From the IMG/VR virus record IMGVR_UViG_3300010375_000060, positions 1 to 20,051 of that record: DNA of 20,051 nt, one strand, 5' to 3'. Source of the DNA: a virus. The position numbers and the translations under genes are program-made. Of the stretch, positions 7,285 to 11,519 are shown one piece after another. How positions within the stretch are numbered: position 1 is the stretch's first letter; the number at the start of each line of letters is the position of its first letter. The notes below the pieces were generated by a model. That model worked only from the letters and a program-made list of their open reading frames with translations. It was not told the origin of the DNA and did no database searches.

Positions 7285-7646
7285 CCCGCTCAAGATCGTC
7301 AGCGAGGGCAGCCGGAAGTAGTCACGAACGCAACATCGCTGACTACCTCGCGTTGCATGTTGACGACCGCATCGACCGTCGTGTCAAGACCGGTGCGAAG
7401 GATCGGGGCGACATCGGCGGGCTACGTGTCCTCGACAACCGCATCGTGATTGAAGCGAAGGACTACGGCGGCAGGATTCTCGCCGCCGAGTGGATCGCTG
7501 AGGCCGAGCTTGAGGCCGGCAACGACGACGCGACAGCGGGCATCGTCATCGCAAAACGTAAAGGCGTCACAGCACCCGGCAAACAGTGGGTGCTCATGGA
7601 CGTCGACACCCTCATCACCCTCATCACAGGACAGAGACCCGAATGA
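7278..7646 (+). CDS. Hjc-like PD-(D/E)xK nuclease (possible Holliday-junction resolvase)
   Basis: A 122-residue protein with the layout of small archaeal-type Holliday-junction resolvases: Glu17 in a helix (SHERNIADYL), Asp45 in RGDIGG, and E59-x-K61 in VIEAKDY, the core of a metal-dependent PD-(D/E)xK active site. A helix (AAEWIAEAELEA) and a final strand (GIVIAKRKG) complete the fold. Beside a YqaJ-type exonuclease it could resolve recombination intermediates or trim branched DNA before packaging. GTG 7278 and GTG 7281 are both possible starts; the second gives the usual 4-nt overlap with the integrase stop. The fold assignment is fairly secure, the exact substrate is inferred. Confidence 0.75.
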   Translation: MVTRSRSSARAAGSSHERNIADYLALHVDDRIDRRVKTGAKDRGDIGGLRVLDNRIVIEAKDYGGRILAAEWIAEAELEAGNDDATAGIVIAKRKGVTAPGKQWVLMDVDTLITLITGQRPE

Positions 7647-8323: not shown

Positions 8324-8874
8324 TGGATCTGTCCCAAAGCATTGTTCCGAAGAGTGACCAACTCAACGCAGACGATCTGATCGCAGGCCCGGTGACTGTC
8401 ACGATCGAATCGGTAACGGCCGGCACAGACGAACAGCCGGTGAACGTGAACCTGGTTGAGTTCCCTGGCCGCGCGTACAGGCCGTCCAAGTCGATGCGTC
8501 GAGTGATGGTCGCGGCGTGGGGTCCGGAGACGTCAACGTATGGTCGGCGTCGGATGACGTTGTTCCGCAACCCGGATATCCAGTTCGGGGGGCGGGCCGT
8601 TGGTGGGATCGAGATCGCGGCCATGAGCGACATCGAGAAGCCGTTGACGATCGCGTTGACTCGCACGCGTGGAAGCCGGAAGGACTTCACGGTGAAACCC
8701 CTCGAGAGTGTGCCCGACGCAGCGGGTGAGTGGCTAGCGGCGATCGGTAAGGCGGCAACGATGGGACAGCTCGAGGCGGCTTGGAGGGGAGCTGCGTCAG
8801 ATGGGGTCGCTTCGGATCCGCGTGTGACGGCGGCGAAGGATGCGAAGAAGGCCCTGCTGGGCAAAGAAAACTGA
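8323..8874 (+). CDS. Unknown protein paired with the YqaJ exonuclease
   Basis: A 183-residue protein of no family I can name. Residues about 20-110 look like a beta-rich, possibly OB-like domain (GPVTVTIESVTAG, NVNLVEFPGRAYRPSKSMRR, KPLTIALTRTRGSRKDFTVK), followed by an Ala-rich helical tail ending AAKDAKKALLGKEN. The basic segment RPSKSMRRVMVAAWGPETS could contact nucleic acid. Its start touches the exonuclease stop, so the two are made together, and exonuclease-annealase pairs are common in phages. A role in annealing or as an exonuclease cofactor is therefore a fair guess, but no Erf, RecT or Redbeta signature is visible. It is the last gene before the non-coding origin-like region. Confidence 0.75.
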   Translation: MDLSQSIVPKSDQLNADDLIAGPVTVTIESVTAGTDEQPVNVNLVEFPGRAYRPSKSMRRVMVAAWGPETSTYGRRRMTLFRNPDIQFGGRAVGGIEIAAMSDIEKPLTIALTRTRGSRKDFTVKPLESVPDAAGEWLAAIGKAATMGQLEAAWRGAASDGVASDPRVTAAKDAKKALLGKEN

Positions 8875-8881
8875 CGCCAAT

Positions 8882-9003
8882 CCGTCCACAGGCACTTCGC
8901 CCTTTCACATGCCCGGGTGTCGGCGATGACTGACAGGCTTTTGCACTGAGTTGTCCACCGAAATGCGGACAGAATGCACTTTCGAATCACAGGGTTGTCC
9001 ACA
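8882..9003 (+). other. Cluster of DnaA-box-like sites (possible origin region)
   Basis: Three same-strand sites resemble the actinobacterial DnaA box TTGTCCACA: CCGTCCACA (8882-8890, two mismatches), TTGTCCACC (8951-8959, one) and TTGTCCACA (8995-9003, exact). They lie in the largest gene-free stretch of the window (8875-9116), just before the replication genes. Known DnaA boxes bind the host initiator; that the phage recruits it here is inference. Confidence 0.6.
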
Positions 9004-9023
9004 GGGCAGCTTGCCGAACGAAC

Positions 9024-9037
9024 GTTCCACGTGGAAC
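9024..9037. promoter_or_regulatory. parS-like palindrome (ParB-binding site candidate)
   Basis: GTTCCACGTGGAAC is a perfect 14-bp palindrome. It equals the chromosomal parS core GTTTCACGTGAAAC except for one symmetric T-to-C / A-to-G pair, a variation tolerated in actinobacterial parS sites. It lies 20 bp after the exact DnaA box. No ParA or ParB gene is seen in the window. A different protein recognising CACGTG is the alternative. Confidence 0.65.
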
Positions 9038-9050
9038 ATCAATACGAACG

Positions 9051-9085
9051 AAGCGGCCCAAAGGTGTTGGCGCACCGGGCCGCTT
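9051..9085 (+). terminator. Large GC-rich hairpin, probable terminator or origin structure
   Basis: AAGCGGCCC (9051-9059) pairs with GGGCCGCTT (9077-9085), and within it GGTG (9063-9066) pairs with CACC (9073-9076) around a 6-nt loop. This gives 13 pairs with a single 3-nt bulge. It ends the intergenic region 32 bp before the next start. The T-run is poor (TTCT), so rho-independent termination is only probable; a structured origin element is the alternative. Confidence 0.6.
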
Positions 9086-9116
9086 CTGATCCACCCACCT
9101 TGCAATGGAGGACTGA

Positions 9117-9308
9117 TTGTCGACCCTATCTGCCGCAGCCGATCATCTGCGAATGCTGCGCCTCGAACGCGACCCCAAGCAGGACGCCCTCTACGTTCGC
9201 CTCGCCTTCACCTACGGGATCCCGGTTGACGAGATCGCATCCATCTCCGATCTGCCTCTTCAGCGCGTGAGAGCGATCCTCGACCCGAATAGTTGTGCCC
9301 GTGGCTAG
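9117..9308 (+). CDS. Small helix-turn-helix-like protein (copy C)
   Basis: A 63-residue protein. After a charged helix (ADHLRMLRLERDPKQDAL) comes a probable helix-turn-helix at about residues 31-54 (FTYGIPVDEIASISDLPLQR), ending VRAIL. The layout follows the small HTH proteins at 2992 and 5007, though the turn Gly is replaced by Ser or Asp. A TTG start is well supported by GGAGG (9107-9111) 5 nt upstream. As the first gene after the origin-like region, it may bind that region or regulate the replication genes; this is inferred from position. It overlaps the initiator gene by 14 nt. Confidence 0.7.
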   Translation: MSTLSAAADHLRMLRLERDPKQDALYVRLAFTYGIPVDEIASISDLPLQRVRAILDPNSCARG

Positions 9309-10044
9309 GAAAAGGATGATCAGCCCCGAGCTCAGAACATCCGAGAAGGTTGCCCAATGGCCGCGCGAGGTCCGCTACTTCTGGGTGCTACTACTCGGCT
9401 ACCTGGACGACTACGGAAAGGGGAAAGACAACCCGCAGCTCATCAAGTCCGACTGCCTCCCCCTCGACGATGACGTGACCGCTTCGAAGGTGGACGAGTG
9501 GCTTTGGATCATCGCTGGGGCCGGCGTGATCGTCCGATACACGGCCGATGGCGTCAATTACATCGCCGCGGTGAACTGGAGAGAGCATCAGACGATCCAG
9601 CATCCTACCAACAGCAAAATCCCTGATCAGGAAGGGAATGAAATCCGCGTGAAAGGCTCACGAAAGATTCGTGAAAGCCTCACTCCTAGTTTAGTTAAGA
9701 GTAATTCAATAGAAGCGTCACGCGGGCGCGTGACGGACAGTGACTTTCTTGTCGCCTGGACGCACTGGCCGAAGAAGACAGACCGAACCAAATCGTTCGA
9801 ACGGTTCGCCGCCATCGCCAAGTCTCGAGGCCTCGAGACAATCACCGCAGAAGTGATCAAGTTCGGCGACGCATACGCACGAACGACCGAGAAGAAGTTC
9901 GTGCCGGCCCTTGCCGCTTGGCTAAACCGGGAACGATGGACAGACGAACTGCCCACGGCTGGCGGAGCAGCGCCGGCATACGTTCCAGAAGCCAAAGCTC
10001 CCGCAGGTAAGAAGTGGGCCGTCGATGTGATGGACGACTTCTGA
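9295..10044 (+). CDS. Replication initiator / replisome-organiser-like protein
   Basis: A 249-residue protein with two regions joined by a polar linker. Residues about 8-105 look like a winged-helix DNA-binding domain of phage replication proteins (PELRTSEKVAQWPREVRYFW, then LLLGYLDDYGKG and VIVRYTADGVNYIAAVNWRE). Residues 149-217 (SDFLVAWTHWPKKTDRTKSF, KFVPALAAWLNRERWTDE) are a C-terminal domain often seen in such proteins and thought to engage the helicase or its loader. The linker (about 106-148) is encoded by DNA with direct repeats, an AT-rich segment and an inverted repeat, as in phage lambda gene O, which contains its own origin. GTG 9295 or GTG 9301 may be the start. The downstream ATPase would be its helicase partner. 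Confidence 0.8.
   Translation: MPVARKRMISPELRTSEKVAQWPREVRYFWVLLLGYLDDYGKGKDNPQLIKSDCLPLDDDVTASKVDEWLWIIAGAGVIVRYTADGVNYIAAVNWREHQTIQHPTNSKIPDQEGNEIRVKGSRKIRESLTPSLVKSNSIEASRGRVTDSDFLVAWTHWPKKTDRTKSFERFAAIAKSRGLETITAEVIKFGDAYARTTEKKFVPALAAWLNRERWTDELPTAGGAAPAYVPEAKAPAGKKWAVDVMDDF
9649..9735. other. Candidate replication origin inside the initiator gene
   Basis: Two 13-mers, GTGAAAGGCTCAC (9649-9661) and GTGAAAGCCTCAC (9671-9683), differ at one base and are 22 bp apart, two helical turns. An unusually AT-rich stretch follows (about 9686-9712), then a perfect inverted repeat CGTCACGCG-GG-CGCGTGACG (9716-9735). Iterons beside an AT-rich unwinding segment are the standard form of an initiator-dependent origin. 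Confidence 0.6.
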
Positions 10045-10313
10045 TGCCCGCTATCGGCGCCTCGGTTGAAAAGTCCCTCGACGACAGCCTCCACAAGCTG
10101 CTGGCTGGGGAGATCGAACTATCCGACCTGACACCAGCCCTTCAAGGCTGGTACGTTGCCGGGTTTGTCAACGGGCAGCAGATCCTCCCCGAAGACGCTC
10201 ACCTCCGCTGGGAAGCCGACCTCTGGTACTTCGTCGCCAACAACCGTGGCAAGACCGCATCTGACTTCTACGCCGGCATCACAACAAGGCTCTGGGAGGA
10301 GGCAAGTGAGTGA
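10044..10313 (+). CDS. Small protein between initiator and helicase-like ATPase
   Basis: An 89-residue acidic, helical protein (SLDDSLHKLLAGEIELSDLT, ALQGWYVAGFVNGQQILPED) of no recognised family. Its start overlaps the initiator stop and its stop overlaps the ATPase start, so all three are translationally coupled. A helicase-loading or replisome adaptor role would fit the position but is inferred. There are several Trp residues (WYVAGF, LRWEADLWYF) and a conserved-looking end, ITTRLWEEASE. Confidence 0.72.
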   Translation: MPAIGASVEKSLDDSLHKLLAGEIELSDLTPALQGWYVAGFVNGQQILPEDAHLRWEADLWYFVANNRGKTASDFYAGITTRLWEEASE

Positions 10314-11184
10314 CGACTTCGAGAGCGCCGTCGAACAGCAGCGGTTCCGAACCGCTGTCTTCGAGGAAGCCAAGAACCGCGACAGAGAAGAGAGCGCAGC
10401 AAAGGTCGGAACGAAACTCGCCCCCAAACCGCTCGGAGAGATTCTGGCGGACGAGCCGACATGGGATTGGCTTGTCCCGGATCTGCTCGAGCGGAAAGAC
10501 CGACTCGTCGTAACCGGTGCTGAAGGTCTGGGCAAGTCACACTTCCTCCGCCAGATTGCGATCAGCATGTCTGCTGGTGTTCACCCGTTCAAGATCCGCG
10601 AGAAGGTCATCCCATCGAGGGTTCTGGTCATCGACGCAGAGAACACCGAACAGCAGTGGTCGCGTGGTGCACGGTACGTCACCCGACTCGCCGAGCAGCA
10701 CGGTTCGGTCAGTCCTCGCCGGATGGTGCAAGTGTCGGCGGGGGTTCGCATCGACTTGACGTTGCGGGCTGACGTCAACCAGGTCCGCGCGCTGATCACA
10801 AACATGCGACCCGACGTGCTGTACATCGGACCGTTGTACAAGCTGCTGCCGAAAGCGTTGAACACCGACGACGACGCAGCGCCCGTCATTGAAGCCCTCG
10901 ACAGCTTCCGAGAGCTCGGCGTGACGTTGCTGATGGAAGCGCACGCCGGCCACGCCCGCAACAGTGCTGGCGAACGTGACCTGCGCCCGCGTGGCGCATC
11001 AGCTCTGCTCGGCTGGCCCGAGTTCGGTCTCGGTCTGGCGCCAGTCGACGAATCGGATCTGTCGATGGTGCGGTTGGCGCAGTGGCGCAACGGGCGTGAG
11101 CAACGTGATTGGCCGAAACATCTTAGGCGTGGGCAGGTCGGTGAGCTTCCCTGGGAGCCGGCTTTCCCCGATTCGAATCTGTAA
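10306..11184 (+). CDS. RepA-like / AAA_25-type hexameric ATPase (probable replicative helicase)
   Basis: A 292-residue RecA-fold ATPase. Walker A is GAEGLGKS at residues 71-78. A strand VLVIDAEN (106-113) matches the conserved acidic strand of RepA/KaiC-like proteins. The Walker B strand is VLYIGPLYKLL (171-181), in which the usual Asp is Gly. EAHAGHARN (211-219) is the sensor region. An N-terminal helical segment (1-40) precedes WDWLVPDLLERKDRLVVTG, the usual lead-in of this family. It would unwind DNA or load the replisome at the phage origin with the upstream initiator. GTG 10306 was chosen: GGAGG lies 3 nt upstream and the codon overlaps the previous stop. Starting further upstream would overlap the small gene fully. 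Confidence 0.83.
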   Translation: MSDDFESAVEQQRFRTAVFEEAKNRDREESAAKVGTKLAPKPLGEILADEPTWDWLVPDLLERKDRLVVTGAEGLGKSHFLRQIAISMSAGVHPFKIREKVIPSRVLVIDAENTEQQWSRGARYVTRLAEQHGSVSPRRMVQVSAGVRIDLTLRADVNQVRALITNMRPDVLYIGPLYKLLPKALNTDDDAAPVIEALDSFRELGVTLLMEAHAGHARNSAGERDLRPRGASALLGWPEFGLGLAPVDESDLSMVRLAQWRNGREQRDWPKHLRRGQVGELPWEPAFPDSNL

Positions 11185-11213: not shown

Positions 11214-11519
11214 ATGGCAACGATCAACATTCAGAACGCGACCGTCCAGTTCGTGAACAACGGCAAGGGGTTCAAGGTACTTGAGGAGACCACATCTGGT
11301 GGCCGCACGTTCAAGCAGCAGTACACAGTGTGGGCTGAGCCGGGTCATGGGTATCAGGTCGGAGACACGGTGTCTGTTTCGGGTTTCCTGGGTGCGAAGG
11401 TTGGGAAGCCCTGGACGGGTAACGATGGTGTCGAGCGGGCTTCGGTGGAGTTGTCGGTGAACTCGCCGACGTTCACGAAGTCGCCTGCTTCGGTGAACGA
11501 GGCTGAGGTTCCGTTTTGA
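11214..11519 (+). CDS. SSB-like OB-fold protein
   Basis: A 101-residue beta-rich protein (MATINIQNATVQFVNNGKGF, TFKQQYTVWAEPGHGYQVGD, TVSVSGFLGAKVGK, RASVELSVNSPTF) with the strand pattern of a single OB fold. It ends in EAEVPF, close to the DDDIPF tail by which bacterial SSBs bind partner proteins. It is shorter than bacterial SSB (about 150-180 residues) and lacks the long Gly/Gln linker. Its place after the helicase-like ATPase fits single-strand protection during replication. AAAGGA (11198-11203) precedes the ATG by 10 nt. The fold is inferred from pattern, not a signature motif. Confidence 0.75.
   Translation: MATINIQNATVQFVNNGKGFKVLEETTSGGRTFKQQYTVWAEPGHGYQVGDTVSVSGFLGAKVGKPWTGNDGVERASVELSVNSPTFTKSPASVNEAEVPF

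Follow-up and report, generated by a model that had tools for sequence, protein, structure and literature searches.

A probable replication origin within the linker codons of a phage initiator gene

In phage lambda, and in the Stx lambdoid phages, the origin lies midway along the initiator gene, where the initiator binds four repeats, and an AT-rich region required for unwinding comes after them (PMC7466680). In the pSK41 rep gene, of the RepA_N type, the winged-helix N-terminal domain of the protein binds four Rep boxes located centrally in the gene that encodes it, the amino acids specified at these boxes form a dispensable linker, and the N-terminal domain and origin of pPR9 differ from those of pSK41 as a single block (PMC5703833). 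The oriL of SPP1, in gene 38, has direct repeats inside the initiator gene together with an AT-rich region, and this phage illustrates that a second site may exist alongside an in-gene origin (PMC6316719, PMC8965321). Direct-repeat origins are also found inside the rep genes of TP901-1 and Tuc2009 (PMC8965321). We analysed a stretch of viral DNA of 20,051 nucleotides (IMG/VR record IMGVR_UViG_3300010375_000060, positions 1 to 20,051; called the window below) encoding an initiator for whose family no origin description or experimental mapping was found in the open-licence literature. Judging from its sequence, the linker codons of the initiator gene very probably double as the replication origin of the phage, in a lambda-like arrangement.

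The initiator gene and the element in its linker codons

The replication initiator gene (9295..10044, + strand) has a GTG start and encodes a protein of 249 amino acids matching the "replication initiation protein" profiles PHROG 2149, 1408 and 270 (E values of 9e-24, 2.5e-22 and 6e-16, respectively), but no Pfam or NCBIfam model. In an AlphaFold model built with 51 homologues, residues 118–140 (pLDDT <50) form a disordered linker between two confidently predicted domains, confirming the location given in an earlier interpretation of this DNA (the sequence-only reading), which had placed a possible origin in the codons joining two protein domains. The N-terminal winged-helix domain (codons 1–110; 9295..9624, + strand), with pLDDT values mostly above 95 over residues 21–90, gave winged-helix matches in the PDB with Z scores of up to 8 and is the putative iteron-binding domain. 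The C-terminal helical domain (codons 148–222; 9736..9960, + strand) has its helices at residues 148–211 and a pLDDT of 81 when modelled alone; it may contact the helicase or a helicase loader. Searched alone against the PDB, it gave no significant fold match, and DnaD-like folds were absent among the matches listed. The same replication module contains a gene for a DnaB-like/AAA_25 helicase (10306..11184, + strand; Pfam AAA_25, E value of 2.9e-23), separated from the initiator gene by a small gene, and in Hum25, Dardanus and Schmidt the gene immediately following that of the initiator is a homologue annotated as "DnaB-like dsDNA helicase" or "DNA helicase". The gene following that of the helicase in the window (11214–11519), in the position of an SSB gene, had no Pfam or PHROG match.

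The whole element is best bounded at 9637–9735, entirely within the disordered-linker codons, and consists, in this order, of four repeat units, the easiest-melting stretch of the window and a 9-bp inverted repeat. A direct repeat of 14 nt with one mismatch, CGTGAAAG[G/C]CTCAC, is present at 9648–9661 and 9670–9683, with the two copies 22 bp apart, start to start; no other 14-mer pair (≤1 mismatch, spacing ≤30) occurs anywhere in the 20-kb window. As 22 is not a multiple of 3, the reading frame differs between the copies, which rules out a repeat at the protein level. The two copies belong to an array of four 11-bp units on the + strand, in helical phase (9637–9647, AATGAAATCCG; 9648–9658, CGTGAAAGGCT; 9659–9669, CACGAAAGATT; and 9670–9680, CGTGAAAGCCT), with GAAA at positions 9640, 9651, 9662 and 9673. 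The sequence-only reading was thus correct in reporting direct repeats with this spacing, but described them as two 13-mers and missed two of the four units, which are the putative iterons. The 11-bp phasing at the array is the highest in the window, and a dyad (TCACGAA-AGA-TTCGTGA, 9658–9674) lies inside it. A search of the window for another array of these units found none.

The adjacent AT-rich segment (9681..9715), a candidate DNA unwinding element, is the GC minimum of the window at every size tried, from 30 to 60 bp, and contains its least stable 30-mer (9686–9715; −31.3 kcal/mol, z of 5.1). It is followed, immediately before the C-domain codons, by a perfect 9-bp inverted repeat with a loop of 2 nt (9716..9735; CGTCACGCG-GG-CGCGTGACG), and 9-bp inverted repeats of this kind are present at just 5 places in the window. 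Both features had been recognised in the sequence-only reading. In synonymous-codon shuffles of the initiator gene (n = 5000), which keep the protein and its codon usage, the observed value was reached in one shuffle for the 14-mer pair, 12 for the GC dip, three for the 11-bp phasing and one for the number of 9-bp palindromes, a count that includes one at 9822. The latter is a perfect 18-bp palindrome, GTCTCGAGGCCTCGAGAC, at 9822–9839, within the C-domain codons. GC skew showed no switch at the linker site and was uninformative.

By analogy with lambda, SPP1 and the RepA_N plasmids, we infer a sequence of binding, melting, helicase loading and initiation. The N-terminal domain would bind the four units at 9637–9680, which all lie on the same face of the helix; initiator assembly on these units would strain and open the adjacent weak duplex (9686–9715), and the C-terminal domain would deliver the downstream-encoded DnaB-like helicase onto the opened strands. 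The protein segment encoded by the element would be only a flexible tether, leaving the DNA free to evolve as a binding site.

Conservation of the element among homologues

A scan of IMG/VR with the single initiator protein yielded one nearly identical contig (L001) as its sole match. This contig cannot test conservation, because it does not differ from the window between 7575 and 10007. Most of its differences (51 of 68) are packed into 7332–7574, with none thereafter up to 10007, a pattern placing a recombination boundary shortly before the replication module. At the DNA level, the phage collection yielded matches only to the upstream exonuclease and neighbouring genes.

The unit-by-unit comparison was based on one relative, the closest independent homologue (L093; 44–45% identity), the only one close enough for this purpose. 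The linker of L093 (AATGAAACCCT CATGAATGTTT CACGAAACCCT CATGAAACCCT CACCCCTGAGTTAAATAG) could be aligned, each unit and each codon matching, with its counterpart in the window (AATGAAATCCG CGTGAAAGGCT CACGAAAGATT CGTGAAAGCCT CACTCCTAGTTTAG), and the four units are kept in the same codons despite the linker protein being only 32% identical. A lack of the repeats in close relatives, which the sequence-only reading had named as counter-evidence, was thus not observed. Over the 20 codons of the array, amino-acid identity was 45% and third-codon-position identity was 70%, versus 63% and 41%, respectively, for the N-domain (Fisher p of 0.026). With a matrix derived exclusively from the four units of L093, the window array came out as the top 4x11 array in the 20 kb (38.1), with ranks 2 to 5 occupied by shifts overlapping this site or by its opposite strand, and none of the best five located elsewhere.

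Homologues were obtained by scanning IMG/VR and GTDB and from phage records. The scans were performed with a tighter alignment (A3) and a two-sequence alignment (A5), another alignment (A2) being too diverse for use as a query. At 85% identity, 180 homologues were left, 152 of which had the N-domain and 76 both domains. They originated from phages of Actinomycetota and from the genomes of Proteobacteria and Verrucomicrobiota. The initiators of Gsput1, Bernal13, PFR1 and PapayaSalad (PHROG 2149 / 1408 / 270) are direct homologues and have repeats in this linker too. Short direct repeats covered 36.3% of the linkers and were present in 75 of the 76 loci (non-redundant homologues), versus a coverage of 3.3% for the N-domains, 2.8% for the C-domains, 2.2% for the flanks and 1.2% for shuffled linkers. 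The most repeat-rich 100 nt fell in the linker in 61 of 71 loci (3.3 expected), and linker repeats were found in 30 of 32 non-Actinomycetota genomes. Among the 76 homologues, the repeats thus keep their place in the linker without conservation of the protein sequence encoded there, and this comparison, which the sequence-only reading had itself proposed, supports its placing of an origin in the initiator linker, with the layout of lambda gene O. Out-of-frame repeats were detected in only 6 of 32 disordered SSB tails from the same loci (2.4% coverage), versus 72 of the 76 linkers (29.7%), indicating that tolerance by a disordered segment is not enough in itself to account for them.

With short tandem arrays masked, the autocorrelation of the linkers peaked only at 11, 22 and 33 nt (0.357, 0.328 and 0.314, respectively, versus about 0.24–0.29), and significant 11-bp phasing was obtained for 103 of the 152 linkers, with about 6 expected. 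The phased repeats were followed by a tandem array, mainly of 8-, 7- or 5-mers, in 122 of the 152 linkers; this array was G-rich on the coding strand in 114 of these 122 and, in 83 of the 84 linkers for which its position could be tested, it was on the 3' side of the phased repeats. Arrays of this G-rich kind (GGGGAACA, GGGAACA, GGGAA) are located directly after the iterons in L013, L022, L101, L004, L009 and most relatives, and are perhaps involved in opening, helicase loading or priming. The window and L093 are among the 30 of the 152 linkers with no tandem array, and the window has the AT-rich segment instead. An AT-rich dip was rejected as a feature of the family, the GC minimum of the gene lying in the linker in 43 of 152 cases (34 expected). 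Because this dip is not family-wide and most relatives carry a G-rich array, it is the analogy with lambda and duplex energy alone that suggest an opening element in the window. Of the 76 relatives, 11 had inverted repeats of 7 bp in the last 30 nt preceding the C-domain (2.1 expected).

Some relatives have a second set of repeats within the region encoding the N-domain, some 200 nt ahead of the array in the linker, as in PFR1 (L011), in which 11-bp TCTCGCGAG repeats occupy gene nt 177–212. The family as a whole displays a repeat peak about 150 nt before the end of the N-domain.

The repeat words of the linkers tracked N-domain identity (partial rank correlation, rho of 0.30; Mantel p of 0.002), with a partial correlation of −0.002 for C-domain identity. 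The association with the N-domain may partly reflect physical linkage, as the repeats adjoin the N-domain codons, and such linkage is itself to be expected, given that the N-domain and origin of pSK41 and pPR9 differ as one block (PMC5703833). We consider it rather probable that this group of phage initiators shares a cassette in its linker codons, consisting of 11-bp phased iterons and, in about 80% of cases, tandem 5-, 7- or 8-mers replacing the opener and nearly always G-rich on the coding strand, and that this cassette moves with the N-domain as an exchangeable unit.

Other readings of the repeats and the 8882–9085 region

Binding sites for a protein inside its own gene can serve control, and the fold matches of the winged-helix N-domain include repressors, Fur and PerR among them. 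The repeats might then be an operator through which the initiator controls the transcription of its own gene, with the origin elsewhere, but this seems unlikely: the sites lie some 340 nt into the gene, no promoter-like site was found in 8700–10100, and an operator would leave unexplained both the adjacent least stable duplex and the tandem arrays following the phased repeats in 83 of 84 relatives. The two functions are, moreover, partly compatible, as initiator-bound origins can also be operators.

A slightly poorer case can be made for the noncoding region 8882–9085 being the real origin, driven by host DnaA, with the linker repeats incidental. In this region, similarity to actinobacterial DnaA boxes is seen at 8995 (TTGTCCACA) and 8951 (TTGTCCACC), the region having one perfect copy of TTGTCCACA and another with a single mismatch, and a parS-like perfect palindrome, GTTCCACGTGGAAC, is present at 9024–9037, in a noncoding stretch. 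However, the window contains 7 TTGTCCACA-like matches (≤1 mismatch), versus 3.7 expected, and the best melting stretch of the region has a value of −39.6 kcal/mol, versus −31.3 kcal/mol in the linker. Neither the DnaA-box-like site nor the palindrome is conserved at this place beyond the near-identical contig: the palindrome is absent from the loci of all other relatives and a perfect TTGTCCACA box was found in only four others, and the combination of box and palindrome is restricted, among IMG/VR contigs, to this phage and the near-identical contig. The parS-like palindrome itself is common in IMG/VR (at least 119 stretches), and the sites at 8951–9037 are possibly a host ParB or DnaA site. 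The sequence-only reading had considered the linker to be a second potential origin besides 8882–9085. This order of priority appears to be backwards, as 8882–9085 has no iteron array, weak duplex or conservation in relatives; the region is not needed to explain the origin of the phage, although it may be a second site, as in SPP1. The best reading is that the linker element is the main origin candidate, not a spare.

It is highly improbable that the linker merely tolerates functionless repeats made by slippage in an unconstrained disordered segment, for, although linkers evolve rapidly and the tandem 5-, 7- or 8-mers of many relatives could come from slippage, the disordered SSB tails are nearly devoid of out-of-frame repeats, imperfect units have been retained in phase in both the window and L093, their third codon positions being better conserved than those elsewhere, the 11-bp phasing persists with tandem arrays masked, and the order of iterons and then array is fixed.

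Implications and comparison with known in-gene origins

The repeat pattern suggests that almost all members of this large and little-studied phage initiator family have an in-linker origin. From this pattern, the origin can be predicted for considerably more than a hundred phages and prophages, among them the cultured Gordonia phage Gsput1 and Mycobacterium phage Bernal13. The pattern also suggests a simple rule, that the origin should be looked for in the initiator linker; incompatibility groups might be predicted from the repeat words. If the G-rich arrays are an opening or loading element, they would constitute a variant of the usual AT-rich one.

The likeness to the lambda origin extends to the position of the repeats, which the same repeat measure places at the same distance into the gene: gene nt 354–389 in the window initiator (GC minimum at 385) and 355–470 in lambda O (GC minimum at 438), the annotated lambda iterons being recovered. 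This measure also recovered the repeat-rich centre of TP901-1 rep (repeats at 310–397, GC minimum at 356). The lambda units are, however, 18-mers 20–24 bp apart, whereas those of the window are 11 bp long and in helical phase, and neither the window initiator nor any of 51 homologues matched the lambda O Pfam family.

The fold matches to the N-domain included plasmid Rep proteins (4pql, Z of 7.5, rmsd of 3.7 over 90 aligned residues; 4pt7, Z of 7.0; and 5kbj, Z of 6.8), tied with Fur-type proteins, and the block difference between pPR9 and pSK41 matches the association between repeat words and N-domain in the window's family. In contrast to the RepA_N plasmids, the window comes from a phage encoding a DnaB-like helicase of its own, and its initiator has no match to the RepA_N domain in Pfam. 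No Pfam, NCBIfam or solved-structure sequence match links the window initiator to those of SPP1, TP901-1 and Tuc2009, and only one array of these units was found in the window. Within the family itself, most of the PHROG 2149 / 1408 / 270 relatives carry a G-rich tandem array after the iterons, whereas the window and L093 do not. On sequence grounds, the element appears to work like an origin embedded in an initiator gene, while belonging to neither the lambda O nor the RepA_N family, and it differs from known in-gene origins in two new features: the 11-bp phasing of its units and the G-rich arrays of its family.
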